Below, in pieces: positions 37,104 through 59,928 of a stretch of 64,000 bases of DNA. The stretch lies in NCBI RefSeq assembly GCF_016888165.1, contig NZ_JACSWC010000425.1:1-64000 (forward strand). The letters run 5' to 3'. Origin of the DNA: Halomicronema sp. CCY15110. Lineage in GTDB: Bacteria; Cyanobacteriota; Cyanobacteriia; Phormidesmidales; Phormidesmidaceae. A program made the translations under genes and the position numbers. The notes beneath the pieces are model-generated. The model worked only from the letters and a program-made list of their open reading frames with translations, had not been told where the DNA came from and ran no database searches. Numbering within the stretch: position 1 is the stretch's first letter; each line of letters begins with the position of its first letter.

Positions 37104-37165
37104 CCATTCAACCGACTCACTGACCATCCCTCAGCTTAGAGGTACTAGCTATTCAGGACAGACTC

Positions 37166-41359: not shown

Positions 41360-42298
41360 TCAATCTTCGAGGAGTGCTTCTATTTGCTGGAGTAATTTCT
41401 CGATACGCTTTTGCTTCCCAGGGCTACTAATTTGCTTACGCTTGTACTTGCGTGAAAGATCTGACAATCGAATACTGATTGATGGAGTTTCAACGTCGGT
41501 AGTGCCTTGCCTACTTGCTTTCACCTCTTTTTTGATTTCAGAAATCGGCAGTGATTCCAAAATCGCTCGCTCTAATAACTCCTGCTGCAGCTTGTCGTCT
41601 TTCAGCTTTGCGATTTCTCTAGCCTTCGTGTACTCTAGTGCGCCTTGTCTAAGCGCCTCAAGGATTCTGTCCGGCAGCGTTAGTAGAGGTAGTCGGGACG
41701 TTCTGAAGCTTTCAGGGGTAATGGCGATCGTTGACGACAACACTGCTTCAATGACTTCCATCTGTCGGGAAACGTTTTCCGACAGGACTGTATTTTTTTT
41801 GCTTGCTGTTGCTGCCTGGGTCAAAATTTCATGGATTTCAGAAACACTGCAACACAATTCTTCAGTCAGTAAAGTTAAAACACCCTCTGTTTCCTCCAGC
41901 GGGTTCAAGTTCTCTCGCTTGAGGTTTTCAATAAGAGCAATCTTAAAAGCTTGCTTTTCCGACAATCTTTTGATGACAACTGGTACAAATTCATGATTAA
42001 GTGCTTCAGCGGCTCGTAAGCGGCGATCTCCTGCTACCAATTCATAAAGGCCATCTTCGCTGTCATCATCAAGTGGACGAACCAAAATTGGTTCTAGAAT
42101 GCCTCCATCATCTTTGATTGATTGAATCAACTCTTCGAGTTTGTTCGGGTCAAAGTATTTGCGAGGTTGTTTTTTGGGCCGACGGATTTTTTGGATTGGA
42201 AGTGAACATCCTGATTCCGAAGTGTGTGGTTGCTGTGCAGTGCTCAAGAAGGCCGAGACGCCTCGCATTTGTGGAACTGTGGAGCGTTTTCTAGTCAT
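41360..42298 (-). CDS. parB: ParB-family partition protein
   Basis: 312 residues. KKQPRKYFDPNKLEELIQSI, GILEPILVRPL and YELVAGDRRLRAAEAL form the ParB/Spo0J N-terminal (CTPase) domain. LIENLKRENLNPLEETEGV and a central HTH region follow. ParB binds parS and loads onto DNA to segregate a replicon. It overlaps parA by 8 bp. A parS-like palindrome lies within this gene. Confidence 0.92.
   Translation of the reverse strand: MTRKRSTVPQMRGVSAFLSTAQQPHTSESGCSLPIQKIRRPKKQPRKYFDPNKLEELIQSIKDDGGILEPILVRPLDDDSEDGLYELVAGDRRLRAAEALNHEFVPVVIKRLSEKQAFKIALIENLKRENLNPLEETEGVLTLLTEELCCSVSEIHEILTQAATASKKNTVLSENVSRQMEVIEAVLSSTIAITPESFRTSRLPLLTLPDRILEALRQGALEYTKAREIAKLKDDKLQQELLERAILESLPISEIKKEVKASRQGTTDVETPSISIRLSDLSRKYKRKQISSPGKQKRIEKLLQQIEALLED
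41762..41785. promoter_or_regulatory. Candidate parS palindrome inside parB
   Basis: A 24-bp near-perfect palindrome from CTGTCGG to CCGACAG with centre GGGAAACGTTTTCC. It shares the GGGAAACGTTT core with the palindrome upstream of parA. Confidence 0.5.
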
Positions 42299-43052
42299 CT
42301 AAATCCTCTACCAAGCTTTTGGCGATATCGTCTAAAACTTTAGTTGCTGCATGTTTACGACTAAAAAGCGCTAACGGCAAATGCTCCATAGACGCATCCG
42401 CAAATGCCGTAGCTCTTGGAACAGGCGGATGAATCATTCCAACCTGTGATAACTGCGATTGAATAGCCGACAAAATATCTTTATCTTGAGCATTGTTTGC
42501 AGCATAAATTGTAGGGACAATGCCTGCAATCCTCAGGTCCGGACGAACGTTACTTTTCACCTGCTGAATTGTGTCTAGAAGCAATTCAGTTCCTTTATAG
42601 CTCTTATACTGAGTTTGAACAGGAATAAGAACGTGGGTGGCAGCAACTAGACTAAGTACGCTCAAAACCCCCAAGCTAGGGGGGGCATCTATCAAAATGA
42701 AATCGTATTCGGCCTTAACAGACTCTAAGGCTTTACTGAGCCTCCACTCACGAGACATCATTGATGACAACTGAATTTCAGCAGCACTAAGCATGATGTT
42801 AGATGGAGCCAAATCCATTCCATGAATGTCTCTGTGTATTGGAATTGGCTCATCTTTAAGGATAGCGTTAGCTATAGTCTGTTCCAGATCAGCCGGTTCT
42901 AGCCCCATGAAGGCAGTGAGGCTAGCCTGCGGATCGAGGTCAACCAATAGCACAGACTGTTTGCGCTGCTTTAAGTGGTATCCAATATTCATTGTCAAGG
43001 AGGTCTTCATGACGCCTCCTGACTGATTGAAGACAGCAATAATTTTGGTCAC
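42291..43052 (-). CDS. parA: ParA-family partition ATPase
   Basis: 253 residues from a GTG at 43052, which has GGAG 8 nt upstream and begins MTKIIAVFN; a TTG at 43100 would add 16 residues. The deviant Walker A is NQSGGVMKTS, with Gln-Ser where most ParA have Lys-Gly; a variant of this type occurs in cyanobacterial plasmid ParAs. Walker A' is VLLVDLDPQASLT and Walker B is FILIDAPPSLG. ParA forms ATP-dependent gradients that position plasmids with ParB. It overlaps parB. Confidence 0.92.
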   Translation of the reverse strand: MTKIIAVFNQSGGVMKTSLTMNIGYHLKQRKQSVLLVDLDPQASLTAFMGLEPADLEQTIANAILKDEPIPIHRDIHGMDLAPSNIMLSAAEIQLSSMMSREWRLSKALESVKAEYDFILIDAPPSLGVLSVLSLVAATHVLIPVQTQYKSYKGTELLLDTIQQVKSNVRPDLRIAGIVPTIYAANNAQDKDILSAIQSQLSQVGMIHPPVPRATAFADASMEHLPLALFSRKHAATKVLDDIAKSLVEDLDD

Positions 43053-43183
43053 ACCTGAAGCTCCGTTAGGGTGGTTTGTGGTTCGTAGTCGATCAGGCAA
43101 GTAGGCACTATTTTGCTTTAAATGATCAAGTTTTTCAATTGCTCCTAGCCAGAGACGAGTCGCATTCAGCCTGCCGTCTTATC

Positions 43184-43205
43184 TATCGGGAAACGTTTCC
43201 CGATA
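43184..43205. promoter_or_regulatory. Candidate parS palindrome upstream of parA
   Basis: A perfect 22-bp palindrome with centre GGGAAACGTTTCCC and TATC/GATA ends. It lies between divergent parA and the PP-loop gene, so it may serve as centromere or operator. The core matches the palindrome inside parB. Confidence 0.6.
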
Positions 43206-43335: not shown

Positions 43336-44916
43336 ATGTCCATTCACATTGCTCCGCCTGCCCTCAATCTGGAAGCTGTGCGAGAGATTGAGGTGGATGT
43401 CGCACTTGCCGCAGGCAACGATCGCCAAGAGCCATTGTATCTGTGGGACGACAATTTACAAAAGCTCAAACAAATCACAGATGTCGATCTGAGGTTGCTC
43501 TGCTTCCCTGGCTGGCAACCTGACAAAGCTTCCCTAGTCAAAAGCGGTCAACCCGTCATCCTCAGCTACGGCCTGGGCGCGGACTCAACCGCACTGCTGC
43601 TCAAATACCTGAGCGAAACGGACGAAGAAAGGGGCTTTCCGCTCGAAAACCTGATCGTCATCACGTCTTTGGTCGGTCGGGAGTGGGATGAAACTATTGA
43701 TAAAGTGCAGCGGTTTATCCTGCCCCTACTACGGCAGCACAACATCCTGACCATTCAATGTGGTCGCATGTCTGACTATTCAGCCGAGGGTTGGATTATC
43801 TATGAATGCAGCCGTCAGCCTCAGCGCATCTATCAGGGTGTGGCTCAACGCCTCGGCTGGACATTGGATCGCCACCTGCTGCGAAACGGCATTGTGCCGC
43901 AACGCCGCAAGGGTGCCCGCACCTGCACGTTGCGCTTTAAGGGCGAGGTGATTGACGCGATCGTGCGCCATCTGTTTGCCGTCTCCCCAATGGCAACCTA
44001 CAAGCGCGAGATTGGCTACAACGCCGATGAAGTGGGACGGGCGAACCGGAGTGAAGGCTATGGCTCTGATGGCATCGAACCCACTTATCACGTTGGCTAC
44101 AACGCCGATGAGACCCACCGGGCCAAGAGCGATCGCTCAATGGGTAATCAGGGCTATGCCTACGAGATTGGCTACAACGCCGATGAGGAGAGCCGCATCA
44201 GTGCGGAGGTTTCCACCTGGCGCAAGCAGGTCTTTAGCTTCCCGCTGATTACCAAGTACGGCATGGATCGGGCGGCAGTCGATGAGTTCAACATCGTCAC
44301 CATCGTGGCGCTTTATGGCGTGAGCCGGGATGAGGCGCGGATTCGCAAAAGCAGTTGTACGGATTGCCCATTCAGTTGCTCCAGTGGCGGTCGCTCACTG
44401 CTGCTGAAATCCTATTGGAGCCAGCCAGAGGAGGGGGCCAATGCTGCTTTCATCGAGCAGAATGCCTTGGCGCTCAATCCTACCCAGTTCCTCTACTCCA
44501 GCAAATTCACGGTCTTAGAGCTGCTGGAGCAGGACGGCAATACGGCGGCGTTGCAGGCGTACCAAGACCTGATGACAAGCATTGAAGACTGGGCCGTTTA
44601 TGCGGTGCGCCGCATCTGGAAGCCAAAAGGATTGATCCGCCAAACCGATCGCGTCTTTGAAGGTACTCGCCAAGAATGCCAACGCCTGCTGGAACGCATT
44701 GGTGAAGCAACTGGGATTGCTCCTGTCTTGCTGTCTCTGTCCTGGCGCGTGGTCACGATTGAGCGCACGAAGGAAATCCGCCCCAGCGTGGAAGAAACGT
44801 TCATTGTGACGCCCAACTATCCCGTAGAAAAGCAGGGCCGCATCACGAAGGAAGCCTTTGCTCTGAAGTGGAAAGGTTTAACCGGAAAGCGACCCACTAC
44901 CCCTATCACTAACTAA
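43336..44916 (+). CDS. PP-loop (PAPS-reductase/DndC-like) protein with triplicated motif
   Basis: 526 residues from the ATG at 43336 (GGAGA upstream). ILSYGLGADSTALLL at about 75-88 is a PP-loop for ATP adenylation. GARTCTLRFK follows. GYNADE occurs three times, at about 227, 254 and 279, where relatives usually have one such motif. Cys341, Cys344 and Cys348 (SSCTDCPFSCSS) could bind a metal or FeS cluster. The fold fits PAPS reductase/DndC-type enzymes that activate or transfer sulfur. The DndB-like gene follows 11 bp downstream, which supports a nucleic-acid sulfur-modification role; no DndA, DndD or DndE is visible. Confidence 0.75.
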   Translation: MSIHIAPPALNLEAVREIEVDVALAAGNDRQEPLYLWDDNLQKLKQITDVDLRLLCFPGWQPDKASLVKSGQPVILSYGLGADSTALLLKYLSETDEERGFPLENLIVITSLVGREWDETIDKVQRFILPLLRQHNILTIQCGRMSDYSAEGWIIYECSRQPQRIYQGVAQRLGWTLDRHLLRNGIVPQRRKGARTCTLRFKGEVIDAIVRHLFAVSPMATYKREIGYNADEVGRANRSEGYGSDGIEPTYHVGYNADETHRAKSDRSMGNQGYAYEIGYNADEESRISAEVSTWRKQVFSFPLITKYGMDRAAVDEFNIVTIVALYGVSRDEARIRKSSCTDCPFSCSSGGRSLLLKSYWSQPEEGANAAFIEQNALALNPTQFLYSSKFTVLELLEQDGNTAALQAYQDLMTSIEDWAVYAVRRIWKPKGLIRQTDRVFEGTRQECQRLLERIGEATGIAPVLLSLSWRVVTIERTKEIRPSVEETFIVTPNYPVEKQGRITKEAFALKWKGLTGKRPTTPITN

Positions 44917-44927
44917 AGGAGAACCCC

Positions 44928-46010
44928 ATGACTCAGACTACTGCCGATAAATACCCTGATCATCTATTCCCCATCATCGACCCGGACGCTGAATATCAGT
45001 TCTCCGTGGTCGAGGGGCAGCAAAGCGGTCGCCCTTATTGGATGCTCAATCTGACCGTTCAGGACATTAAGCGCATGTTTGCCGAGTTCCTCGACCGGGC
45101 CGAGCATGACCCCAGATCGCTGGCCCAACGCTCACTCAATCCGAGTCGAGCACGAAAGCTCAAGAAATACATCTTGGGTGAGGTGCTGCCGGATGAGGGC
45201 TTTTACATCCTGCCGCCGCTAGTGCTCTCGGTGGACTGCGAGGAATATGACTTTGATGAAGTCTGCCAGGGCGCAGGGCGTTTAACCCTGCCTTCTGACT
45301 CTCGGTTTTGGCTGGGAGACGGGCAGCACCGCGCCGCCGGATTCCTGCAAGCCTACCTCGAAGCTCCGGCGATGCTTAACGATGAAACCGTGGGCGTGAT
45401 GCTGTTGCCCGATACAGGCAACCAGATTCGCCATAAGGTGTTCCTCGACATCAACGCCAATGCTTCTAAGCCGAGCAAATCAATCGCGACTCTATTTGAC
45501 GAGCGCGATCGCTTGGCTGATGTAACGCGAAACCTGCTGGTCCTGCCGTGGGTGGAGCGGTACACCAACTTGGAACGCACCACGCTCCCCAAGCGCAGCG
45601 GTGATCTATTCACCCTGAATGGCTGGCGGGATGCGAACCGGGAGCTGCTGGCGAACGTGCCAGAGGACGATTGGGATAGCGTTGCGGCTGGCTACTGGAA
45701 GGCGATCGCTGAGACCATCCCTCAGTGGCGCGACCTGCTGGCGGCGGTGGAGCAAGAGCAATCTGTAAATGCTCCCCCCCTCCGGCAGGACTACATCTGT
45801 TTCCACTCGATTACGCTATCAGCTCTGGGCCTACTGGGTCAGCAGCTCATCGGCGAGTCCGGTCAGGCTCCCGACCTATCGGGGCTGGCAGCCGTGGACT
45901 GGAGCCGCAGCAATCCCGATTGGGAAGGGCTGTTCTTATTCGAGGGCAAGATTATCAAAAACAAGCGGTCAGCGACTCACTTTGCTGACTACTTGCAGAC
46001 GTTTGTATAG
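44928..46010 (+). CDS. DGQHR-domain protein, DndB-like
   Basis: 360 residues. LAQRSLNPSRARKLKKYIL, then FWLGDGQHRAAGFLQAYLE (DGQHR at 131-135), VFLDINANASKPSKS and LFDERDRLADVTRNLL match the DndB/DGQHR family, which regulates DNA phosphorothioation operons and resembles ParB nuclease folds. AAAGGAGAACCCC precedes the ATG, nearly identical to the vWA gene leader at 49770. The adjacent PP-loop gene points to one module. Confidence 0.85.
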   Translation: MTQTTADKYPDHLFPIIDPDAEYQFSVVEGQQSGRPYWMLNLTVQDIKRMFAEFLDRAEHDPRSLAQRSLNPSRARKLKKYILGEVLPDEGFYILPPLVLSVDCEEYDFDEVCQGAGRLTLPSDSRFWLGDGQHRAAGFLQAYLEAPAMLNDETVGVMLLPDTGNQIRHKVFLDINANASKPSKSIATLFDERDRLADVTRNLLVLPWVERYTNLERTTLPKRSGDLFTLNGWRDANRELLANVPEDDWDSVAAGYWKAIAETIPQWRDLLAAVEQEQSVNAPPLRQDYICFHSITLSALGLLGQQLIGESGQAPDLSGLAAVDWSRSNPDWEGLFLFEGKIIKNKRSATHFADYLQTFV

Positions 46011-46022
46011 CCCGCTATTGCG

Positions 46023-46053
46023 TAGCCGTTTTGAAGTTTATTCAGAACGGCTA
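46023..46053 (+). terminator. Stem-loop after the DndB-like gene
   Basis: TAGCCGTT and AACGGCTA pair over 8 bp around a 15-nt loop, 13 bp after the stop. The following sequence is only moderately T-rich, so termination may be partial. Confidence 0.4.
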
Positions 46054-46097
46054 TGTATTTATATCAATCCCCTCCCAAACAATCATCCGAGCGCATC

Positions 46098-46304
46098 ATG
46101 CCCGGACGAGACGAGCTGCGATCGCTGCACGAGCAACTGGAAGCGATCGCCACTGTAATAGAGTTGTCCCCGACCGCTCAGCAAATGTTGAGCGACCCGC
46201 AGACCGATTTTCAATGTCGAATGCGGCGCGACCTGATGCGCCTGAGAACGGCACGGCTCGAACTTGCTCATGCTAACGAGATCGTCAAAAGCCTGTTGCG
46301 CTAA
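46098..46304 (+). CDS. Hypothetical small helical protein, 68 aa
   Basis: The ATG at 46098 opens MPGRDELRSLHEQLEAIATV. The sequence is helical and charged, without motif. An in-frame upstream start (46053) would lie in the preceding hairpin. It fits between the DndB-like gene and the zinc-ribbon gene on the same strand. Confidence 0.45.
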   Translation: MPGRDELRSLHEQLEAIATVIELSPTAQQMLSDPQTDFQCRMRRDLMRLRTARLELAHANEIVKSLLR

Positions 46305-46577
46305 CGCTCTGAGGCAATAGACCGAAGGGCCAGGGATGACCACTGCCACTGCTCAGTTCTCCCCATCAGGTCAAAGTGCCTCGTGCCGCCTGAAGCGTTG
46401 ACGGTCGCCCATCCGGGCGCAGTGCTACCACTGCCAATCACGTCGAAGCGACTACCTGCCATCAAAACCAAAGCTGCCTCTCTGCATCTTCAGGGATGCA
46501 GACTTTTTTCGGATCCGAGACGAGGCACCGATTCGGCTATCGCCATGCCGCCAGTGAAGTTTTTAGGAATCATGGCG

Positions 46578-47678
46578 ATGACGAACGCAATTATGCAACT
46601 TCCCGATCGCGGGATACAGCAGGTCAATGGAGCCATTGACCACTACAACACACTGGTGCTCTTTATGCAGCACTCGTTAAGAGATGGCCTCGACTACGGC
46701 AAAATCCAGGGCTGCGGCGATAAACCGATTCTCTTTAAGCCGGGGGCCGAGAAGATTGCCACCCTGTTCGGCCTGCGGGAGTCGTTGGAGCGACTGGAAG
46801 CTATTAAGGACTGGACGGGCAACGATTTCGGTGAACCCTTTTTCAATTTTGAGTACAAATGCACGTTGAAAAACCGCGAAGGCCATATCGTTGCCGAATG
46901 TGTGGGTTCCTGCAACTCCTGGGAGGAAAAATATCGTTACCGCACCGCTCAGCGGGTTTGTCCTCAGTGTGGCGCGGCGGCGATCAAGCGCAGCCAGTAT
47001 GAGGACCGACAAACGGGCGACAAAGGGTGGTACTGCCACAGCAAGAGCGGTGGTTGCAATGCCAAGTTCCGCAGCGATGATCCTCAAATCACCTCACAGC
47101 AACAGGGTAAAGTGCCCAATGAGCGCATCTTCGATCAGGTGAATACCATCGACAAGATGAGCCAGAAACGGGCATTCGTCGGATCGGTGATTCTAGCGGC
47201 AAATGCTTCTAATTTCTTCGCTGTCGAACACTCTGAAATCCAGACGATCGATGCTGACTGGGAACCCCAGGAAGACATCGGTAATGCAGCTCATCTGGAG
47301 CGAGTGCCTGGCGGCGGCGAAGCGGCCCGTGACCAGGGCCAGCTCAATCGCGATCGCATTCAACTAATCATCGGACGCACTGAGCATACCCTGGCGCAGG
47401 TGAAGCAGATGGCAGACGGCAAGACCGCTGACCAGCTCAACGATGAGGAGATGCAGAGCTTGATCGATCAACTGCTGATTGATTGGGGCCGTAAGCGTCA
47501 CCACGTCTCCGTTCAGATTGCTCGAAACCTGCTTGACGAGATCAGGAGTGAGCAACCGCGCATCACGGACAACAACCTGATCCTTCGCTTCGCCCAGCGG
47601 TGCAGTGAAGCCCTATCAGAGCAAGTCCCGACCCAGCGCAAAGCCGCCACGACTGTTGGCGGGGTCAGTATCGACTAG
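46578..47678 (+). CDS. Phage-recombination-like protein with zinc ribbon
   Basis: 366 residues from the ATG at 46578 (TAGGA 9 nt upstream; ATG 46572 also possible). GLDYGKIQGCGDKPILFKPG then AEKIATLFGL resembles phage or plasmid proteins of the DYG.IPG..KP.L.KPGAEK type, often beside recombinases. A zinc ribbon follows (CPQCGAAAIKRS...WYCHSKSGGC). The C-terminal half is helical. A DNA- or RNA-binding role is likely; the exact biochemistry is unknown. It precedes the acidic protein gene by 106 bp. Confidence 0.6.
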   Translation: MTNAIMQLPDRGIQQVNGAIDHYNTLVLFMQHSLRDGLDYGKIQGCGDKPILFKPGAEKIATLFGLRESLERLEAIKDWTGNDFGEPFFNFEYKCTLKNREGHIVAECVGSCNSWEEKYRYRTAQRVCPQCGAAAIKRSQYEDRQTGDKGWYCHSKSGGCNAKFRSDDPQITSQQQGKVPNERIFDQVNTIDKMSQKRAFVGSVILAANASNFFAVEHSEIQTIDADWEPQEDIGNAAHLERVPGGGEAARDQGQLNRDRIQLIIGRTEHTLAQVKQMADGKTADQLNDEEMQSLIDQLLIDWGRKRHHVSVQIARNLLDEIRSEQPRITDNNLILRFAQRCSEALSEQVPTQRKAATTVGGVSID

Positions 47679-47784
47679 CGACCTCAAACGGCAAAAGCGA
47701 AACGGCATCTCTGGACTGTCAGGGGTGTCGTTTTCCTATGCGCTTGGGCGCAGGAACCATGAAATTTATTTTGCATTTAAGACT

Positions 47785-48480
47785 ATGAACCCTAACGCAA
47801 CCACTCAGACTCCCCTCGCTGATCTCATCCAAGTTGGCGAAATCCTGTACGCCAGCGGATTATTCAGTGACCTCGAAAACAAGGAACAGGCGATCGCGCG
47901 AATCTTGCGCGGCCAGGAGCTAGGCATCCCGCCCGTAGCTGCACTCACTGATGAGAGCACAGTCCTGCCGCCAAAGCCCTCCAATGCTCAGCAAATCTCC
48001 AACCTGCTCAATGAGCTGGGAGTGACGAGCATCAAGGATCGGCGGGCCGTCGCTGTGAACCATTTGGGCGGACGCAAAGCCGCAGACCTCTCTACAGACG
48101 AGCTAGACGACGTTCTAGCCGCGATTCGTGAGACCTACGATGATCCACAAGTGGTCGATGATGTTCACGAAGAAGCCGATGAGGTTGAGGCAGTCGAAAC
48201 CGTTGAAATCGCTGTCGTTGAAGACGATGACGATGACGACGATGGAGATGATGAGCCTATCGAGCCTGGAACCACTGTCGATGACGCTAACGACGATGAT
48301 GAACCGACCGATGCGAGAGCGGCTATCTCAGCAGCACTTGATGGGGCAGGCATCACCGACGTTGATGAGCGTCAGCGCCTCGTTAAGAAACAACTTATGG
48401 CGATTCGACGCCGGAAAGTGGAAACACTCACGCCAGATGAATTGACGACCGTGCTCGAAGGCATCGCCGCAGCGGCATGA
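47785..48480 (+). CDS. Acidic protein with a RecT-like N-terminal motif and a duplicated helical domain
   Basis: 231 residues from the ATG at 47785. The N-terminus, LIQVGEILYASGLFSDLENK then QAIARILRGQELGIPPVAAL, resembles the start of phage recombination proteins that then continue into a RecT-like fold, which is absent here. Two similar helical modules follow, LLNELGVTSIKDRRAVAV and LDGAGITDVDERQRLVKK, each ending in LSTDELDDVL or LTPDELTTVL. An extremely acidic linker (DDDDDDDGDDEP) separates them. It may be a DNA-mimic or an adaptor. Confidence 0.55.
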   Translation: MNPNATTQTPLADLIQVGEILYASGLFSDLENKEQAIARILRGQELGIPPVAALTDESTVLPPKPSNAQQISNLLNELGVTSIKDRRAVAVNHLGGRKAADLSTDELDDVLAAIRETYDDPQVVDDVHEEADEVEAVETVEIAVVEDDDDDDDGDDEPIEPGTTVDDANDDDEPTDARAAISAALDGAGITDVDERQRLVKKQLMAIRRRKVETLTPDELTTVLEGIAAAA

Positions 48481-48508
48481 CCTCATGCTAAATAGCTCTG
48501 AAACGACG

Positions 48509-48541
48509 CAGCTATCCGTGATCGGGTGGCTGTTTCTTTTT
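48509..48541 (+). terminator. Rho-independent terminator
   Basis: CAGCTATCC and GGGTGGCTG form a 9-bp stem (two G-U pairs) with a 6-nt loop, followed by TTTCTTTTT. It lies 29 bp after the acidic protein gene and could reduce transcription into the MoxR gene. Confidence 0.65.
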
Positions 48542-48584
48542 CAGGCTATCGCCGCGCAGGGCTGACCTATATGGGCAAACGACT

Positions 48585-49778
48585 ATGCCTAGAACCAAGT
48601 CTAAAAGCAAAACAGCCTGCACCCCTCGCGACAAGCTGTTGCGGCTGGAGCAGGAATTAAACCAAATGTTTCTTGAGAGGGCAGACCTGATCCGCATCAT
48701 TCTGCTCTCACTGCTAACCCGCCAACACACGCTGATCTTTGGCAAACCGGGCGCGGCTAAAAGCAGTCTGGTGCGGGCCATTGCATCCGCTATCTCTGGC
48801 GGGTGCTTCCAGGTACAGCTCGGCAAAGACACCACCACGGATCAGCTCTTTGGGCCGATTAAGGTGTCGGAGCTACCCCATGACCGCTTATGTCGGGCCT
48901 TCGAGAACTTCATGCCGGGTAAGCCGTTGGCCTTCCTGGATGAAATCGACAAGGCCAACAGCGTGATCCTCAACGCCCTCTACACGGCGATGGAGGAACG
49001 GCTATTCCTCAACGATGGCGAGATGTGCGAAATGCCGCTGATCAGTCTATTTGGTGCGGCTAACAGTATCTCGCAGCTTCAGACCGAAGCCCTGGCACCG
49101 CTGCTAGACCGCTTCCTGTTCCGCATCGAAGTGGACTGGATGCAGTCAGACTCCAATTTTCTGGAGTTTGTCCGGCGTCGGGCAACAGGCGAGAGTCCGT
49201 TTATCACCACGGTTCTGAGCATCACTGAGCTTCAGCAGATGCAGGCAGCGGTGCGAACCATCGAGTTCTCGGTCGAAGCCCAGGAGGCGATCGCTCGCCT
49301 GCGCAAGGAGCTAGCTGCTGAGGATGTTCATGCCTCGGATCGGCGGTGGGGCAACTGCATCGACCTGCTGCAAGCCACTGCCTACCTCAACGGCAACAGC
49401 GAAGTCACTGGCGCTGATTTCGCCGTCCTCAAGCATGTGCTGTGGACGGACACCCAACAAATTTCGGTGATTGACCGGAAGCTGAGAGCGTTGCAGAAGC
49501 TCAAACCATCGAAAGGGAAAGGGCGATCTCAACTCAGCAAGAACCTTGATCCGGTACTAGATAACGCCATCGCAGCGATGCGAGACTTCGACGCTGATAC
49601 AGCGGTCGGCAAGGTCGCGATCGCCCTGACTAACCTACAAGGACTCAAGCAGGGTCTAGGTCAGATGCCGCAGACCCAGGAAATCAAGGATGCGCTGACG
49701 GTGATTGACCAAAAGATCACCCAGCTCGAAACGCATCGCCAACAAATCACTGATCGCAACTTCCAAGCCGTTATCTAA
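48585..49778 (+). CDS. MoxR/RavA-like AAA+ ATPase
   Basis: 397 residues. FGKPGAAKSSLVRAIA is the Walker A (from about residue 53). LAFLDEIDKANSVILNAL is the Walker B, and LISLFGAANSIS then LAPLLDRFLFRIE the sensor/arginine region. The long C-terminal region resembles RavA. Such ATPases work with vWA proteins to remodel or load complexes. The partner vWA gene starts 10 bp downstream. No VMAP or EAD protein accompanies it, unlike the MoxR at 17 kb. Confidence 0.88.
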   Translation: MPRTKSKSKTACTPRDKLLRLEQELNQMFLERADLIRIILLSLLTRQHTLIFGKPGAAKSSLVRAIASAISGGCFQVQLGKDTTTDQLFGPIKVSELPHDRLCRAFENFMPGKPLAFLDEIDKANSVILNALYTAMEERLFLNDGEMCEMPLISLFGAANSISQLQTEALAPLLDRFLFRIEVDWMQSDSNFLEFVRRRATGESPFITTVLSITELQQMQAAVRTIEFSVEAQEAIARLRKELAAEDVHASDRRWGNCIDLLQATAYLNGNSEVTGADFAVLKHVLWTDTQQISVIDRKLRALQKLKPSKGKGRSQLSKNLDPVLDNAIAAMRDFDADTAVGKVAIALTNLQGLKQGLGQMPQTQEIKDALTVIDQKITQLETHRQQITDRNFQAVI

Positions 49779-49788
49779 AGGAGAACCC

Positions 49789-51372
49789 ATGACGTTTGCA
49801 ATCCAACAAATCAATCCCAACTGGTCATCGCAAGTGACCACGCTTTGCTATACCGTGTCCCAGTGGGATCGGGATACTTGGCAGGACTACTTACGCTCCT
49901 TTCCCGATGTTGCCGCCACAATCCAGGCTGGCGAGCAACGGATGAAGGGCTGGGGGCTGTTCGCTGAGGAGGTCTTTCACCGCCTCTACACGGCCCCTCA
50001 ACCGATTCCCCATGACCAGCTCCGACCCGAAGTGCTGTGGGCGCATGTGCTCCACCAGCTCATCGATGAGTCGGTGGACATTGGTGAACTGCAAATTGCC
50101 TGCCGGAACAACAAACTGGCAGCGGGGGAAGCGACTCATCGACTCTGTGAGTGGGCCATTGGGGAATTACCCCACCCCCCCCGCAGCTTCAACCCACAAA
50201 AGGCTGAAGACCTGGAGGCCGAATTCGTGCGCCTCCAAGCCGAACTCACGGCGCGGGAGGAAGCTCACAAGAAGCTGAGTCTGGAGCGACAGGCCGAGAC
50301 CGACCCGCAACGGTTGGCAACTTTACAGCAGCAGGTGGACCAACTGGGCACTGACATTGCTGGGCTGAAGAAAGACCTTCAGAAGCTCAAGGTCAAAATG
50401 GGCCGAGTCGATCAAGCGGCCCAAGCCTACGCCGAGAAGATTGGCGCAGCAATGGCCGAGGACATCGCCAATGCGGTGTATCAAGCCCTCAACGGGGTAT
50501 ATGAGCAGCGCATGGCCCTGATTGGCTTCGGCTGGGGGGATGGCTTGGGCACCCTCAAGTGCCCCGGCACTGCTCAGCAGAAGGAGCGCGTCGCCCAACG
50601 TCTGATCAGTGATCAGCGGTTCCGGCAAATCGCTGAAGCTGCCGGTCGCTTCCAGGCGATCGCCGCTCTCCGGCAAGGGGCAAAGCGCTCTAAGCAAATA
50701 CCCGACCAGATTGCCGATACCAGCATGGGCAACAATCTCGCCAAACTAGCTCCCTCGGAGTTGGTGCGAGTCGCCCTCGACGCGGTGCGGACGCAGTTCT
50801 TCAAAGACTTCGCTGAGGAGTCTTTGATTCAGCAGGAGTTCGATGGCAGCAGCGATGAGGGGCAACAAGGCCCCGTCGTGATCTGCCTCGATAAGTCGGG
50901 TTCGATGGATGGGCCAAACGAGGTGGAATCGACAGGTCTGATGCTGGCCCTAGTCGGCATTGCTCAGAGCCAGAACCGCAAGGCACGGGTGATTCTGTAT
51001 GACTCGCGGGTGCGCTATGTCAAGGACATTGACCCGTTGACGGCATCCCCAGCCGAGCGCCTTGATCTGGCTGATCGGCAATACGGCGGCGGTACCAACT
51101 TTATGGAACCGCTTTCTGAAGCCCTCGATGCCTTGGAGAAGCACGCTGACCTCAAAGAAGCCGACGTGGTGTTTATCACGGACGGCGAGGCCGATGTGAC
51201 CGAAGGCTTCTCGAAGAGATGGCGGGAAGCACAGCAACGACTGAACTTCAAGGTTTACACGCTACTGGTCGGCAGCTACGTGAATACGAGTGTCCTGGAA
51301 CGCTTCAGCGACCTGACCATTCACGTTCGCGACCTGAGCGACCCCCAAGTTCACCAGGTGTTTGACATCTGA
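49789..51372 (+). CDS. vWA domain protein, ViaA-like
   Basis: 527 residues from the ATG at 49789 (AAAGGAGAACCC upstream). Helical N-terminal half with a coiled coil (about 145-215). The vWA domain begins around residue 360, with an intact MIDAS DKSGSM at 368-373, and VVFITDGEADVTEGF later. Layout and neighbour match RavA-ViaA pairs. A clear terminator follows. Confidence 0.88.
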   Translation: MTFAIQQINPNWSSQVTTLCYTVSQWDRDTWQDYLRSFPDVAATIQAGEQRMKGWGLFAEEVFHRLYTAPQPIPHDQLRPEVLWAHVLHQLIDESVDIGELQIACRNNKLAAGEATHRLCEWAIGELPHPPRSFNPQKAEDLEAEFVRLQAELTAREEAHKKLSLERQAETDPQRLATLQQQVDQLGTDIAGLKKDLQKLKVKMGRVDQAAQAYAEKIGAAMAEDIANAVYQALNGVYEQRMALIGFGWGDGLGTLKCPGTAQQKERVAQRLISDQRFRQIAEAAGRFQAIAALRQGAKRSKQIPDQIADTSMGNNLAKLAPSELVRVALDAVRTQFFKDFAEESLIQQEFDGSSDEGQQGPVVICLDKSGSMDGPNEVESTGLMLALVGIAQSQNRKARVILYDSRVRYVKDIDPLTASPAERLDLADRQYGGGTNFMEPLSEALDALEKHADLKEADVVFITDGEADVTEGFSKRWREAQQRLNFKVYTLLVGSYVNTSVLERFSDLTIHVRDLSDPQVHQVFDI

Positions 51373-51382
51373 ATCTGACCCG

Positions 51383-51418
51383 ATTGGGAGTGTGGCCCTG
51401 CTGCACTCCCAATTTTTC
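51383..51418 (+). terminator. Rho-independent terminator
   Basis: ATTGGGAGTG (51383-51392) and CACTCCCAAT (51404-51413) form a perfect 10-bp stem, followed by TTTTTC. It ends the MoxR-vWA transcript. Confidence 0.85.
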
Positions 51419-51435
51419 GCATGAGGAAATTCACC

Positions 51436-52233
51436 ATGACCGATTTATTGATATTAATGAGCAACATTCTTGATGCCTCATCCAGCATTGGAGACATCTT
51501 GAACGACTACAAGAAGAACGGCTTTGAAATTGCCGTGCTGGAGCATCAGGGCTATTTTGATGCCGAGGTGATGCTGTCCCGCTGCATTCGGACAATGGCG
51601 ATCGCACCAGTAAGTCATTTTGCAGTCTGCGCCAATGGCGTCGGATGCTACGGCTACTTGCTGAGCGAATCGGCAGCGGGGGGATTCCCAACACTCCGCA
51701 AGCTGCAATCAACGCAGTTAACCGAGAGCGTGCCTCCCGATAGCGGCTACTGGGAGGAGGTAGATGTGCAAGGCTTTTACAAACCCAGTGCGGGTCTGAC
51801 CGAGGTATTGATGCAGACCATTACACCAACGCGCATCCTGGCCGTTTGTGATAGCGAATTTGACCAGAAGACGATCAATAACATCAGCTTCAATAACCGC
51901 AGCCAGATTTATATTCAGGCCAGCAGTGATTGGCTGAAAGGCAATATGATGCAGCCCTGGCAATCTTCAGGCTTCACGCAGGCCAATCCTCCCTTGTCTG
52001 TACGCAGTCCCTCGTCTATGCGCCGTTTCGAGTACATTGATCCAGCCCAAAACTCATTTAAGTATTGGCAAATCGCCATGCATCCCGATGGTTTAGGATT
52101 CCAAACACGATATGGGCGGATGGGCACGACTGGAGCGGTAAAAGACAAGGCCTTCCTTACGACAACAGCGGCCCAGACCGCATATCAAGATCTCATTCGG
52201 CAGAAGCTTCGCAAGGGCTACATCGAAACCTAG
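51436..52233 (+). CDS. WGR-domain protein
   Basis: 265 residues from the ATG at 51436 (GAGGA 8 nt upstream; ATG 51421 less likely). The N-terminal 180 residues are unrecognised. The C-terminal region RRFEYIDPAQNSFKYWQIAM, then FQTRYGRMGTTGAVKDKAF and YQDLIRQKLRKGYIE, is a WGR domain, known from PARPs and MolR-type proteins as a nucleic-acid-end binder. It follows the vWA terminator, and a second terminator follows it. Confidence 0.82.
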   Translation: MTDLLILMSNILDASSSIGDILNDYKKNGFEIAVLEHQGYFDAEVMLSRCIRTMAIAPVSHFAVCANGVGCYGYLLSESAAGGFPTLRKLQSTQLTESVPPDSGYWEEVDVQGFYKPSAGLTEVLMQTITPTRILAVCDSEFDQKTINNISFNNRSQIYIQASSDWLKGNMMQPWQSSGFTQANPPLSVRSPSSMRRFEYIDPAQNSFKYWQIAMHPDGLGFQTRYGRMGTTGAVKDKAFLTTTAAQTAYQDLIRQKLRKGYIET

Positions 52234-52424: not shown

Positions 52425-55400
52425 GTGGCTAGACCTAATTACGGCCCGCGGGCACATCAAAGAACCAGAGCATTGTTGCAAGCAATTTTGAGCTATGCCA
52501 ACGATGAGATTGAAGGGTGCGATCGCCTCGGCTCCCAAATCGAAAGTCACTGGCAAAGCGAGAAGCGGCTGATCGTCAGGACCAAGGTGCGATATCTGGA
52601 AGAGTTGAACCGATTATCCCCGACGCTACCACCTCTGCAAAGTAACCATATTAAGGAAGGGCTGAAGCGCTTTGCTGATCACGTTGGCATCTTAGAAGAT
52701 CTACGAACGGCTACGCAGGGATCAGAAGTTTGGCACTTTGCGCTTAATCTTTGGTCGCCCCGGTTTGATATTGACGGTAACCTGCGGCAGTTTGATGCGG
52801 TTTGGGAAGCCAACCGTCCTGCGAAGTCGAAAGATGTAGCCGGAAGTGTGGTGTCCCCGTCGCCTCAGGCAGAGCCTCCACCAAAGCCTTCTCCGAAACT
52901 GCCGGTTCCATCCAAACATGTCATCGATAGCTGGGGAGAAGCACCTGATGTCTCAGCCTTTTATGGCCGCCAAGCAGAATTGGCAACGCTACAAACCTGG
53001 ATAATCTCCGATCAGTGTCGCTTGATTACGCTGCTGGGGATGGGCGGCATCGGCAAAACCGCTTTGTCGGTCAAACTGGCGCAGCAACTGGCCCCTCAGT
53101 TTGAGGGGGTGATCTGGCGATCGCTGCGCAATGCGCCTCCCATTCAGCACCTTTTAGACGATTTGCTGCTGACCCTATCGCAACAACAACGCTCAGAGGT
53201 GCCCGTCACCATTGATGGCAGCATCACAGCCCTACTGCAAGACTTACAAACGCGGCGAGTTCTCTTAGTGCTGGACAATGTGGAGTCCATCTTGGAAGCA
53301 GAGCAGACCCAGGGAGCTTACCGGTCTGGCTATGAGGACTACGGCCATTTAATCAGGAGCCTGAGCGAAAGTCCTCATCACAGCTGCGTCATTTTGACCA
53401 GCCGTGAAAAGCCGATTGGCCTCAGTGCTAAAGAGGGTCCTGCTTTACCGATTCGGTCCTACCAGCTCAAAGGAGTAGAGCCGCTAACGGCTCGTCAGAT
53501 TTTACAAGATCAAGGCATCATGGCTTCTGTCGGTGAACCCCTGATCGATCGCTACCAGGGTAATCCCCTGGCCATCAAGATTGCGATCGCCACCATTCGC
53601 GATCTTTTTGCGGGGGATGTGGCTGCTTTTCTCGCGGAAGATACCGTTGTCTTTGGCGATATTGCTGATCTCCTGGCGCAGCAGGTAAATCGGCTCTCGT
53701 CGCTCGAATGGCAGTTGATGCAGTGGTTAGCCATCTGCCGTGAGCCGGTATCCTTAGCTGACTTGCAGAAAAAGTTGGTGCCAACGATTGCGACTCGCGA
53801 GCTGCTCACAGCTCTGACTGCCCTACAGCGGCGATCGCTGATTGAGCAGGAGAACTCGACCCATACCTTTACCCAGCAGCCCGTCGTGATGGAATACGTC
53901 ACCGAGCAAATCATTGCTCGCTGTGTTGAAGCTTTCGGGACCGATCTTTCTGCGATGGCTGAGTTTTTGAATACCCTGGCACTGATGGAAGCCAACGCGA
54001 AAGACTACATTCGCCAAACCCAGCGGCGCGTCATTATCAATCCCATCGCTCAGCAGGTAAAGTCTCGATTAGGAACAGCAGCGGCCATTCGGGAGCAGTG
54101 CGATCGCCTGCTCGCTCACCTGCATGCGAACCCCCAGCCGGGATACGCTGCTGGCAATCTGATCAACCTCATGCACGCTTGGCAGTTAGACCTGACTGGC
54201 TACGATTTTTCCCAGCTATCCGTCTGGCAGGTTTACTTGCAAGACCTTGCCCTGCCAGCTACCAACTTTAGCGGAGCCGACCTCAGCCGCTCGGTCTTTG
54301 CCCAAACCCTGGGGGGCTTTTTGGCAGTAGCCTTTCATTCCAATGGACAGCAGCTGGTGACAGCAATTAGCAACGAGTTGGTGGTTTGGGACGTTTGGCA
54401 GGGCAAGCAACTGTTTTCTGGACAGGGGCACACCGCCTGGGTTCTGTGCTTAGCCTACAACTATGACCAGACAATCATTGCCAGCGGCAGCCGAGACGAA
54501 ACGATTCGCCTGTGGGATGCCGAAACCGGACAATGTCTCAAGACACTTGCTTGTCCGGGGAGCTGGATTCAGACGCTGGCCTTCAGCCCGGACGGTGAGT
54601 ATCTAGTGAGTGGCGGCAGCGATGGGGAGATTCGCGTATGGCAGGTGGCCACAGCCCATTGCCAGCGGGTTTTGAGTGGACATGGCGATCGGATTCTCTC
54701 CCTCAAATTCACGGCGGATGGACGCACTTTAGTCAGCGGTAGCCAAGACGGAACCGTTGCGGTATGGGATTTTGAGAGCGGCGATCGCCACCATAGCTGG
54801 AACATTCCCCTCAACTGGTCTTTGGCGATGGATCTCAGTCCCGATGGTCAAACCCTGGTGACGGGCAGCGATGGCAAAACTGTGAAGTTTTGGAATTTGG
54901 TGACAGGAGAGTGCGTGAGAACCCTGCCTGACTATTCGAGTCGAGTCTGGTCAGTGGCCTTCAGCCCGGACGGACAACAACTGCTCACCGCCAGCGAAGA
55001 TAAGAGCATTAAGCTCTGGGATGTGGCTACGGGCGAGTGTTTGAGAACGCTGCTGGGGCATACCCACAGCGTTTGGCTAGCAGTGTTTAGTGCGGATGGG
55101 CGATCGCTGGTCAGCGCCAGCAATGACCAAACGGTGAAGGCCTGGGAGGTGGAGACGGGGCGCTGTTGCCAAACGTTTACCGCCTACAGCAACTGGATAC
55201 AGTCGATTGCCTTCAGCCCCGATGGTAAGACCCTCGCCAGTTGTGGGGAGGAGCAGCAGATTCGGTTATGGCAGCTTACCTCCGGTACCTGTCAGCGGCA
55301 GTTGGCTGGACACACCAACCAGATTTCCTGCGTTGTTTTCAGCCCAGCAGGCGATCGGTTAGCTAGCGGCAGCGACGATGCCACTATTCACCTGTGGAAT

Positions 55401-56171
55401 GCTGCAACCGGGGACTGCTTGCGGGTCTTGCGAGGACACACGGGCTGGGTACAGTCGGTCGCGTTCAGTTCCCGAGAGCCCATTCTGGTCAGCGGCAGCC
55501 ATGACCATACTGTACGGCTCTGGGATGTCACCTCGGGCGAATGCTTGCAAACCCTGGAAGGACACCTGCACCGGGTCAAAACCGTTGCCTTCAGTCCCGA
55601 TGGCAGGTTGGTTGCCAGCGGTAGCGATGACCATTCGATGAAGATTTGGGAAATTGAGTCAGGAGTCTGTGTGCAAACCCTGGAAGGGCATATGGACTGG
55701 GTGTTGTCGGTAGCATTTCATCCAGATCAGTCGTGGGTGGCAAGCGGCAGCGGCGATCGCACCCTCAAACTCTGGGATCTAGCAACAGGCGACTGTCTCC
55801 ACACCCTGACCCAGCATACCCAGCGGATTCGCTCAGTCACCTTTAGCCCCGACGGTCAGCTACTCGCGAGTGGCGGCGATGACGGTACCGTGCGCTTGTG
55901 GCACCTAACTTCGAGGAAATGCCTACAAGTTTTGGACGAGCATACCCGCCCCGTCTGGACCGTCGCCTTTAGCCCCGATGGTGAAACCCTGGCGAGTTGC
56001 AGCGAAGATGAAACCATCCGTTTCTGGAATGTCGCCACAGGAACTTGTATCAACACGTTGAGACCCCAGCGCCCCTACGAAGGCATGAACATTACCGATG
56101 TGATTGGGCTGACTTCGGCTCAGCGTCAAACATTGTTGGCTTTGGGTGCTGTGGATCAAAATAAAACTTAG
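52425..56171 (+). CDS. NB-ARC (STAND) NTPase with 14 WD40 repeats
   Basis: 1,248 residues. It starts GTG at 52425 ([20 protein letters not shown]), the usual beginning of a cyanobacterial STAND group. Walker A is GMGGIGKT at 205-212 and Walker [13 protein letters not shown] near 280. Pentapeptide-like sequence ([16 protein letters not shown]) precedes 14 WD repeats of the [12 protein letters not shown]...LASGS.D..I.LWD type from about residue 630, two seven-bladed propellers. STAND proteins sense invasion or stress via their repeats and oligomerise. No obvious effector domain is present, so the N-terminal domain may recruit one. Confidence 0.93.
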
Positions 56172-56191
56172 ACGGCACGGAGGGCTGCATC

Positions 56192-56377
56192 ATGAGCACG
56201 CCGAAACATTCCCCAGAGTCAGGTAAAAAGAAAGGCAACCCCAACTGGACCGAGAAAGATCCTACTCCCAAACACGATGATACGCCGCAGGAAGAGAGAA
56301 CTGAGCAGGGGGAGTATGGCGATCGCAATCCTAACTGGACCGAGAAGGATGTGCCCTTTCGTCGCAGTGGCTCTTGA
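56192..56377 (+). CDS. Small protein with duplicated NPNWTEKD motif, 61 aa
   Basis: A short, hydrophilic and probably disordered protein with KKGNPNWTEKDPTP and again DRNPNWTEKDVPF. It starts 20 bp after the STAND gene, so it is likely co-transcribed. Its exact role is unknown; a peptide-recognition or inhibitor role is speculation. Confidence 0.55.
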   Translation: MSTPKHSPESGKKKGNPNWTEKDPTPKHDDTPQEERTEQGEYGDRNPNWTEKDVPFRRSGS

Positions 56378-56395
56378 CCTGATATCGAACATTGG

Positions 56396-57319
56396 TCAAT
56401 CCATTGCCTCTAAGGTGGCAATCACCCAACGGCACCAGTCCATATCTTGCACCAGGGTACGTCCACAGGAGTTTTCCTCGGGCGCAGTTCCCATACGGTA
56501 GGCGAGATAGCTAAAGGCGCATACTGCGTTGTAGAGATATATGCGTCTCCGCGAAAGCCTTCGGTTCAAGGCTGGTTCATACACCGTAAGGGCTGCTCCT
56601 AGCATGGCTGAAACGTCTTTGGCAAATGGCAGATAGCGAAAGTCATGATGGCGATCGCCCCAGGCTACACCGTCGTAATCAAAGATGCCGAGAACCTCAA
56701 AGGTCTGGGGATTGAAGGCAAGGTTGTGGAATCCAATGTCAGTATGGATAAGCACCCTATCATTGCTGGGGACTAGAAGAGCATCATACTGGTTCAGTAG
56801 CCTTTCGATTTGGTGAATCAAAGCTGAATCATCGACAACTTGAGGCACTTGCTGCCGAATCTGAACCGAACTGAGTGGCCATTCGAGCGTTTCTGGCAAC
56901 CAACCAGCTACGTCCTGAGCTGTAATCTTCGCATGTTGTTCGACCAGGATTTGTGCGATCGCTGCTCCTGTCTGAGCCACTAGCTTTAAATCCTGGCGCA
57001 ATCGATTGAAGATTGCCTGGGGATGCACCAGGCCAGGAACTTTGGTACGCACATCAAACAGACCACTGTGGCTTTCATACACAACTCGGGGGGCTGCAAA
57101 GGAACACTTTGCCTCCAATAGCCTAAGAACTTTGCGCTCGGTGCATAAACGGCGGTGGCCTTCCTCGGTCATGGCAAACCAGCTCATCCGGTTTTCTGGC
57201 AGATGCACCGCCCAGCGGCATTCACGCGCTTCCAACTGCAGCTCATCCGGTTCTATGACAAGGTCTGCCTGCCGGAGATAATCACACACAATTTCAGGGG
57301 TGAGAGCGTCTATCCACAT
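56396..57319 (-). CDS. APH-type phosphotransferase
   Basis: 307 residues from the ATG at 57319; an upstream in-frame ATG overlaps the GNAT gene and is unlikely. RVLIHTDIGFHNLAFNP contains the catalytic Asp loop, and VLGIFDYDGVAWGDRHHDF the metal-binding DxD element of aminoglycoside/choline kinase-like enzymes. The substrate cannot be named. It starts 1 bp after the tandem GNAT stop (TGAGATG), so they form an operon. Confidence 0.82.
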   Translation of the reverse strand: MWIDALTPEIVCDYLRQADLVIEPDELQLEARECRWAVHLPENRMSWFAMTEEGHRRLCTERKVLRLLEAKCSFAAPRVVYESHSGLFDVRTKVPGLVHPQAIFNRLRQDLKLVAQTGAAIAQILVEQHAKITAQDVAGWLPETLEWPLSSVQIRQQVPQVVDDSALIHQIERLLNQYDALLVPSNDRVLIHTDIGFHNLAFNPQTFEVLGIFDYDGVAWGDRHHDFRYLPFAKDVSAMLGAALTVYEPALNRRLSRRRIYLYNAVCAFSYLAYRMGTAPEENSCGRTLVQDMDWCRWVIATLEAMD

Positions 57320-57320
57320 C

Positions 57321-58364: not shown

Positions 58365-58525
58365 GGCTCAGCAGGTTAGGGCTTAAAATTCAAGGGCGAT
58401 CGCTATAAATGATTCCAAAATAGATGCAAGCAAGAATTAAAGCGATCGCGGCAAAACTATGCTTAAAGAATAACGACTAAACCAACTGTATTTTTCTCAA
58501 ACCTTGCTTCAGAATTTAACCCACA

Positions 58526-59029
58526 ATGGAATTGCAGATTAAGCCCCTAGAGATCAATCACGGGAGAGAAATCCTAAATTGGCGATATTCCTATCCCTAT
58601 GACATTTACAACTTTCAGGGCGATATCGAGCATGGTCTGGCGAATTTACTTGCCCCCGATAATGCTTTCTTTGCCATTTTGAATTTGCAAGGAGTTTTGG
58701 AGGGCTATTGCTCTTTTGGCGCAGATGGTCAGGTGCCTGGAGGCGATTATCGTGCAGCAGGCTTGGATATTGGCATGGGAATTCGTCCAGATCTGACCGG
58801 GAAAGGTAACGGCAAGTTTTACGCACAAGCCGTAGTTGACTATGAGATAGAACACTTCCAGTCCGAGCAATTAAGAGTAACCATTGCAGACTTTAATCAG
58901 CGGGCTCAACGAGTGTGGCGCAAAGTGGGTTTTGAGCCAGCAAAAGCGTTTTACAAAACAGGTACGGAGAACAAATTTGTGATCCTGTGCCGAATACTCG
59001 AAAGGCAATCCAGCTCCTATTCAAAATAG
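58526..59029 (+). CDS. GNAT acetyltransferase
   Basis: 167 residues. GIRPDLTGKGNGKFYAQAVV is the acetyl-CoA loop, and FNQRAQRVWRKVGFEPAKAF the C-terminal GNAT signature. It reads divergently from the tandem GNAT gene, and its 3' end overlaps the convergent 59017-59916 gene by 13 bp. Confidence 0.85.
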   Translation: MELQIKPLEINHGREILNWRYSYPYDIYNFQGDIEHGLANLLAPDNAFFAILNLQGVLEGYCSFGADGQVPGGDYRAAGLDIGMGIRPDLTGKGNGKFYAQAVVDYEIEHFQSEQLRVTIADFNQRAQRVWRKVGFEPAKAFYKTGTENKFVILCRILERQSSSYSK

Positions 59030-59916: not shown

Positions 59917-59928
59917 AGCGTTGGAACA

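Follow-up and report, generated by a model that had tools for sequence, protein, structure and literature searches.

We analysed a 64,000-nucleotide stretch of DNA from the cyanobacterium Halomicronema sp. CCY15110 (hereafter the window), which covers bases 1-64000 of the 80,011-base contig C363 in a cyanobacterial assembly of 6.15 Mb and 443 contigs. Positions 43336 to 52233 carry eight collinear open reading frames (ORFs) on the + strand, separated by gaps of 10-273 nt, among them genes for a PP-loop protein, a DndB-like protein and an adjacent MoxR-vWA pair. Partition genes lie directly upstream. The features of this block and its immediate neighbours are:

41360-42298, - strand: ParB partition protein, a neighbour divergent from the block (PF02195, 89.6 bits; HTH_ParB, 35.3 bits)
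42291-43100, - strand: ParA partition ATPase, neighbour (PF13614, 165.8 bits)
43184-43205: perfect palindrome of 22 nt lying between parA and the PP-loop gene, a candidate parS or operator
43336-44916, + strand: unit A, PP-loop ATP-pyrophosphatase-like protein with conserved Cys 197, 341 and 344 and an extra C-terminal region
44928-46010, + strand: unit A, DndB-like (DGQHR) protein (PF14072, 228.6 bits)
46053-46304, + strand: 83-aa small protein, also present in the congener G388 (74% identity, dN/dS 0.18)
46578 (likely ATG)-47678, + strand: unit B, probable Rad52-fold annealing protein with a zinc-ribbon insert (phrog_10048)
47785 (ATG)-48480, + strand: unit B, acidic protein containing two repeats that resemble each other, with a relative in the congener G388 only
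48585-49778, + strand: unit B, MoxR-type AAA+ ATPase with Walker A and B motifs, nearest solved sequence RavA
49789 (ATG)-51372, + strand: unit B, vWA partner (VWA_2) with MIDAS motifs and without the HExxH peptidase motif
51436 (ATG)-52233, + strand: WGR-domain protein directly 3' of the vWA gene (PF05406, 51.6 bits)

All eight ORFs lie where the original prediction had called them, and its statement that the set fits no named defence type also held: PADLOC returned DndB and three weak matches. Family searches detected neither nuclease nor protease domains among the block proteins, scanning the window for Rfam families and tRNAs gave no matches, and promoter and terminator signals were at chance level. 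We recognised no published description of the gene set in the literature searched, most subscription journals lying outside that search.

The block is inherited as a whole, as had been proposed. In the congener G388 (locus L229), all eight genes occur in identical order near divergent ParA/ParB genes, with one ORF between. The tblastn identities were 37% for the PP-loop protein, 36% for the DndB-like protein, 74% for the small protein, 80% for the zinc-ribbon protein, 51% for the acidic protein, 85% for MoxR, 85% for vWA (86% from its ATG) and 45% for the WGR protein, the start of whose gene in the congener is uncertain. The ratio of nonsynonymous to synonymous divergence (dN/dS) was 0.09-0.27, and the aligned frames were free of stops. 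Because the order is kept, the aligned frames lack stops and dN stays below dS, the block is more than a chance arrangement. The synonymous divergence was ~0.9 for the small, MoxR and vWA genes, 1.3 for the acidic and 1.6 for the zinc-ribbon protein gene; for the PP-loop, DndB-like and WGR genes it reached 2.6-2.7, which is near saturation. Since dS of the PP-loop and DndB-like genes is far above that of the core genes, the simplest reading of these sequences is that one of the two plasmids exchanged both genes together.

Elsewhere the combination is rare. Of 386 genomes sampled across the phylum, one had the PP-loop protein, and the vWA profile matched in 3 of 367; the genome of the window alone had both. 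Among 59 relatives, five had the PP-loop protein, five the zinc-ribbon protein and three the vWA protein, one of the latter (G394) being a partial match with two stops. A further congener, G389, retains the zinc-ribbon protein together with a PP-loop match interrupted by three stops; BLAST detected none of the remaining block genes in the surrounding 19.5 kb, and vWA was not found in that genome. Rare co-occurrence of these genes, named beforehand as counting against the original prediction, was thus borne out in the phylum samples and not within the genus, where G388 has the entire set.

We then consider the MoxR and vWA genes, whose adjacency, Walker motifs and metal-ion-dependent adhesion site (MIDAS) mark them as a MoxR-vWA pair. 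MoxR-vWA machines remodel protein complexes, and in Midasin and its relatives the vWA MIDAS grips an acidic residue of the client. In Pfam the block MoxR matched bpMoxR/AAA_5 plus an AAA lid, with 130.2 bits for bpMoxR against a cut-off of 27, and RavA was the nearest solved sequence (E ~8e-80). The arrangement resembles RavA-ViaA in its adjacent MoxR AAA+ and vWA genes, but the two proteins score 156.7 against 681 and 74.3 against 500 bits for the respective equivalog cut-offs. The available text of PMC7159879 describes MoxR-vWA couplings and places the pair at the core of predicted ternary conflict systems. The block MoxR likewise exceeds the bpMoxR cut-off, whereas Pfam detected no beta-propeller, VMAP or other third component in the eight proteins. 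The adjacent WD40 gene was considered as the third component and rejected, as it does not stand beside the WGR gene in the congener.

Pairs of this type recur on mobile elements. Among the 78 viral loci with vWA, 72 also contain MoxR, and several of the six in which it was not detected sit near a contig end. Adding three loci from plasmids and one from a Moorella phage brought the MoxR-vWA loci to 76. In none of these did BLAST (E 1e-3) find a PP-loop or DndB-like gene in the stretch retrieved around the pair (up to ~21 kb, often 20 kb, sometimes less). MoxR-vWA pairs are known from jumbo phages and an Acidianus virus, a role in virion assembly having been proposed for the jumbo-phage pair (available text of PMC7824862). 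There, according to the same text, a metallopeptidase is fused to vWA, whereas 0 of the 78 viral vWA ORFs here contain HExxH and 74 contain DxSxS; a vWA-peptidase fusion of that kind was rejected for the block on the same ground, no HExxH being present.

The genes next to these pairs vary. DUF6744 stands beside MoxR-vWA in five annotated plasmid loci; four plasmids, two each from Chroococcidiopsis and Acaryochloris, have a different family in its position. Three Pseudanabaena plasmids have genes for an AAA ATPase and SSB after the pair, one of them with an insertion-sequence element in between; the one such ATPase tested matched phrog_1366, of unknown function, and weakly the Sak4-like annealing proteins of phrog_124 (E 8.8e-8). 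A neighbour cluster built by single linkage, whose representative has no family name, occurs in 42 of the 76 loci. The acidic, zinc-ribbon, small and WGR proteins were each compared with DUF6744 as possible diverged members and rejected (hhalign probabilities 0.1-0.5%). The WGR protein of the window was matched in one of the 76 loci (L107) and that of G197, a genome from another family, in three (L107, L150, L156). In G197 the WGR gene begins 22 nt 3' of MoxR-vWA (L210), so that vWA-WGR adjacency is seen in three genomes, namely the window, G388 and G197.

Two further observations were made around such pairs. The MoxR-vWA-WGR region of G197 (L210, 1827-15165) also has what we take, by eye, to be a DNA polymerase III beta-subunit-like gene, a ThiF-like gene and PRTRC-like genes. 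A second cluster, found near MoxR-vWA in 18 of the 76 loci (e.g. L136, 11783-12694), has a reverse transcriptase as its representative (RVT_1, E 8.3e-23) and possibly corresponds to diversity-generating retroelements.

The zinc-ribbon protein of unit B matches phrog_10048, a family of unknown function, and at least 494 relatives were confirmed in viral contigs among 600 candidate stretches. An SSB or Gam-like gene adjoins the relative in three opened loci (SSB in two plasmids), and a Sipho_Gp157 protein, of which a representative was tested, is among the frequent neighbours in viral loci. No solved chain was matched by sequence at E 1. With a structural model built from 43 sequences (predicted local distance difference test, pLDDT, 80.6), rows 1-9 in VIA were all Rad52 (Z 9.1-8.0, with alignments of at most 129 residues), lower rows included yeast Rad52, Mgm101 and the Sak protein from phage 80alpha, and the first ten Foldseek matches were Rad52 (rank 1 probability 0.99, E 7.2e-3). 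The predicted core fold and the SSB neighbours in two plasmids thus liken the protein to Rad52/Sak/Mgm101, from which its family differs in a zinc-ribbon insert whose four cysteines are kept in 41 of 43 sequences. On the strength of the model, the product of 46578-47678 is probably a phage-type single-strand annealing protein with a Rad52 fold. The neighbouring acidic protein has a net charge of -35 in the window and -15 in G388, where a long acidic run is missing; a domain common to the acidic and annealing proteins was looked for and rejected for want of support.

The likeness of the zinc-ribbon protein to a Rad52-fold annealing protein points to recombination or replication. The reading that we favour, with somewhat more confidence than doubt, is that the block is a plasmid DNA-metabolism operon in which MoxR-vWA would remodel annealing or replication complexes, and that it combines two evolutionary units on a plasmid backbone. 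In its favour are the gene order and coding constraint retained in G388 beside divergent ParA/ParB, the predicted Rad52-like fold, the abundance of relatives of the zinc-ribbon protein in viral contigs with SSB or Gam-like neighbours, the near-constant pairing of MoxR with vWA, the ATPase and SSB genes after the Pseudanabaena pairs, and the sharing of PP-family and MoxR-vWA genes by at least four actinobacterial plasmids. Plasmid features of the contig agree with it as well: ParAB, an anti-restriction-type gene (phrog_7245), and the homologues of later contig genes that follow the WGR gene in the congener. We consider it most likely that such a block serves the handling, repair and inheritance of the plasmid's own DNA, an antivirus defence system being less likely. 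Several points weigh against this reading. The Rad52 match is weak, with no Foldseek match at E 0.001; the tenth VIA row is a double-stranded RNA-binding domain (Z 7.9), and VIA Z values of 7-8 are typical for models that match nothing clearly. Only 1 of the 76 MoxR-vWA loci (L131) has a relative of the annealing protein, which lends no support to a general tie between the two, and the phage copies of MoxR-vWA may, by analogy, serve virion assembly. The complete eight-gene block is known in two genomes only, its own and G388. Finally, the contig, which we take as plasmid-like, is not closed, exact matching having found no overlap of its ends.

At E 0.01 neither Pfam nor NCBIfam matched the PP-loop protein of unit A, and a sequence search of the PDB gave no credible match. 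Its sole family match was phrog_424 'PAPS reductase' (E 2.9e-5); it contains the PP-loop motif SYGLGADST. Its AlphaFold model (8 sequences, pLDDT 74.5) yielded no clear match in Foldseek. In VIA it matched PAPS reductase (Z 9.6), TilS (9.2) and the [4Fe-4S] tRNA thiolase NcsA (9.1), with YcfA, GMP and NAD synthetases, LarE and TtuA in further rows. We take the titles of 48 of the 50 rows to denote PP-loop-type families, the titles of 9kpv and 5ztb naming no family. A PP-loop fold of the 43336-44916 protein is therefore supported at the level of the predicted model. Cys341 and Cys344 are invariant in both alignments, and Cys197 is present in 9 of 9 rows of one (A1) and 7 of 8 of the other (A8). 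In related sulfurtransferases three comparable cysteines bind an iron-sulfur cluster; because of this resemblance, thiolation chemistry is possible for the protein.

The DndB-like protein exceeds the cut-off of TIGR03187 (166.9 bits against 58.85) and scores 201.2 bits for the DndB equivalog TIGR03233, under its cut-off of 328; a PDB sequence search gave no credible match. According to the available text of a 2025 survey (PMC12704722), a DndB-like protein binds ATP and GTP. The adjacency of a PP-loop protein of PAPS-reductase-like fold and a DndB-family protein recalls the Dnd system (DndABCDE), from which the block differs in its sub-threshold DndB score (201 against 328 bits). In the genome of the window, neither the DndC model TIGR03183 (matched in 5 of 14 control genomes, none over cut-off) nor the DndD model TIGR03185 (9 of 14, none over cut-off) found a match; the DndE model TIGR03184 was silent in this genome and in all control genomes alike. 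A Dnd variant was rejected, given the silence of the DndC and DndD models and the DndB equivalog score. Judged by description, the PP-loop protein also resembles IbrA, a CysH-like protein of phages and plasmids found with IbrB/ParB (available text of PMC4490671), and CasCysH of type IV-B systems, a CysH-like gene on mobile elements that lacks the catalytic cysteine (available text of PMC8175902). No csf gene was among the annotated features of the opened actinobacterial loci, many of these features being labelled 'hypothetical'.

The PP-loop family is carried by plasmids: it was found on 107 plasmid records with the window protein as query and on 125 with an actinobacterial query, mostly from Streptomyces, Rhodococcus and relatives, and on no record of the phage collection. 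A DndB-like gene lies immediately 3' of it in 4 of 10 cyanobacterial loci (window, G388, L. boryana and Oculatella). BLAST found no DndB-like gene in L020, G393 and G395 or in six actinobacterial loci (L003, L021-L025), the G389 locus is broken, and in Pegethrix and on contig C196 of the same assembly the PP-loop gene is cut by a transposase-type gene near the contig end (labels by eye). ParA/ParB genes occur within ~4 kb in 6 of the 10 cyanobacterial loci (window, C196, Pegethrix, G388, G389, G393). With three Par pairs as queries, BLAST detected none in the other four (L231, L002, L184, L020), and ParB is annotated within ~4 kb in 2 of the 7 actinobacterial loci opened. The C196 locus (L016, 67-3449), a second plasmid-like locus of the same genome, consists of ParA-ParB followed by a PP-loop gene 78-90% identical to that of the window and truncated by the transposase-type gene. 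In Oculatella (L184, 8384-9646), the PP-DndB pair is accompanied by two genes identified by eye: immediately 5' of it a second, different PAPS-reductase-like gene, and on its downstream side a gene that is methyltransferase-like.

The palindrome at 43184-43205 is the sole perfect palindrome of at least 18 nt in the window. Palindromes centred on AAACGTTT also occur upstream of parA and inside parB on C196, as well as between parA and the PP-loop gene in G389; none was found at the G388, G393 and G395 loci, the 19.5 kb G388 locus having none of at least 16 nt. We read the palindromes as putative parS or operator sites. Within the block, similar leaders had been noted ahead of the genes. This was accurate for two of them: AAAGGAGAACCC occurs exactly ahead of the DndB-like (44915) and vWA (49777) genes, and with at most one mismatch it has 3 matches against 0.23 expected, a number reached by 1 of 100 shuffles. 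The motif is not common to the other six genes, and in G388 it is absent at the same genes, which have AGGAG-type sites only. For these two reasons we read the leader as an ordinary Shine-Dalgarno sequence, that is, a good ribosome-binding site; a regulatory signature was rejected, given its absence at the same genes in the congener.

We asked whether units A and B meet outside the two congeners. On a plasmid of Streptomyces sp. NBC_01244 (L240, 807-21074), ParB, PP-family, MoxR, vWA and DUF6744 genes fall within ~20 kb, the PP-family gene (18429-19655) lying 9.4 kb before MoxR-vWA-DUF6744 and ParB 4 kb away from it in the opposite direction. PP-family and vWA genes also share at least three Nocardia plasmids, on which they are ~47, 54 and 69 kb apart, and at least four of nine Nocardia and Streptomyces records with a vWA match also have a PP-family match. 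The L. boryana and Oculatella loci have the PP-DndB pair but no MoxR-vWA. Since plasmids can carry both families beyond the fetched stretch, the statement that the units are separable is weakened to one that they are not tightly linked, and a common plasmid toolbox fits their co-carriage better than a tight cassette or the lack of any relation. A single machine that modifies or senses nucleic acid and then acts on it, as originally envisaged, was not supported: none of the 76 MoxR-vWA loci showed a PP-loop or DndB gene by BLAST, unit A stands without MoxR-vWA elsewhere, and the annealing protein points to recombination and replication.

Among the alternatives, the one that survives best, though we consider it unlikely, is self-marking against restriction. 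Here the PP-loop enzyme and its DndB-like switch would modify plasmid DNA with a phosphorothioate or another adenylation-dependent mark and so escape host restriction, unit B being ordinary plasmid recombination. The predicted PP-loop fold, with PAPS reductase, NcsA, LarE and TtuA among its matches, and the three cysteines placed as in [4Fe-4S] sulfurtransferases make marking chemistry by unit A possible by analogy. An anti-restriction-type gene on the same contig is in keeping with it, as is the strong divergence of the PP-loop and DndB-like genes relative to the core of the two congeneric plasmids, which fits exchange. It is opposed by the missing DndC and DndD matches (the DndE control being silent, and the Ssp families lying outside the search) and by the six actinobacterial PP-loop loci in which BLAST found no DndB-like gene.

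Less credible is that the block is no functional unit, its genes having stayed neighbours because the plasmids of a single genus descend from one lineage. Its confinement to two genomes agrees with this, and G389 keeps the annealing protein with a stop-broken PP-loop gene and no DndB-like, MoxR or vWA gene in 19.5 kb. But the order of eight genes has been kept while dS reached at least 0.9, MoxR-vWA-WGR adjacency is also seen in another family, and PP-DndB adjacency in four cyanobacterial loci. Of about the same low probability is the original model of one defence cassette, in which the PP-loop and DndB-like proteins mark or sense modified nucleic acid and MoxR-vWA is effector or loader: inheritance of the whole block in two congeners, the 9.4-kb spacing on the Streptomyces plasmid, the place of MoxR-vWA in predicted conflict systems (available text of PMC7159879) and further defence-like genes on the contig agree with it, but A and B are apart in most loci seen, the block lacks nuclease and protease domains in family searches, the DndC and DndD models found no match, and the annealing protein and the phage and plasmid spread of MoxR-vWA suggest functions that serve the element.

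Returning to the plasmid DNA-metabolism operon, we infer the target of MoxR-vWA remodelling, the chemistry of unit A and any cooperation between the units as follows. The Rad52-fold protein would bind and anneal single-stranded plasmid DNA during replication, repair or establishment. A MoxR hexamer with its vWA adaptor could then remodel or recycle the resulting protein-DNA complex, or the partners of that complex. The vWA MIDAS would grip an acidic ligand, for which the neighbouring acidic protein is the natural candidate, and the WGR protein may bind nucleic acid. In unit A, the PP-loop enzyme would adenylate, and perhaps thiolate, a nucleic-acid or nucleotide target, and the DndB-like protein might switch it through nucleoside triphosphate binding, the pair being placed near ParAB. 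It is doubtful, though conceivable, that the arrangement goes further: MoxR-vWA of plasmids and large phages would be a Midasin-like recombination remodeller, and the par-linked PP-loop/DndB-like pair would install an adenylation-dependent mark or signal coupling DNA state to partition, together forming an undescribed self-maintenance machine.

The rest of the contig carries further genes, some of them defence-like. In G388 the WGR gene is followed directly by homologues of the contig genes at 70796-71575 and 72316-76659, so that ~18.5 kb (~52.4-70.8 kb of C363, i.e. window positions 52425-64000 plus L018) is absent there. This stretch, with WD40/STAND, GNAT and phosphotransferase genes and, by eye, a caspase-like gene, could have been either gained on this contig or lost in G388. 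The contig also encodes a large protein in which one part is methyltransferase-like (phrog_15406, E 4.1e-7) and another, by eye, a helicase; the anti-restriction-type protein matches phrog_7245 (E 5e-68). At 11892-18842 on the - strand, an EAD1-domain protein, an AAA ATPase, a vWA-CoxE protein and a large TPR/TIR/EAD1 protein stand in a row, forming another AAA-vWA system, which is defence-like and separate from the eight-gene block. A CRISPR-Cas-type locus occupies 31810-38680 on the + strand, with a Cas3-like helicase bearing an HD domain, a GSU0053-family Cas protein, and two proteins of 680 and 504 aa that have no Pfam match.

Taken together, these results caution against taking a PP-loop gene beside a dndB-like gene for a sign of phosphorothioation where searches reveal neither DndC nor DndD, and they link such a pair to plasmid partition loci. 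They show MoxR-vWA pairs to be recurrent cargo of viral contigs and plasmids, for which the block names an annealing protein and an acidic protein as candidate clients. With them phrog_10048, a widespread phage family of unknown function, gains a likely fold and a likely job.

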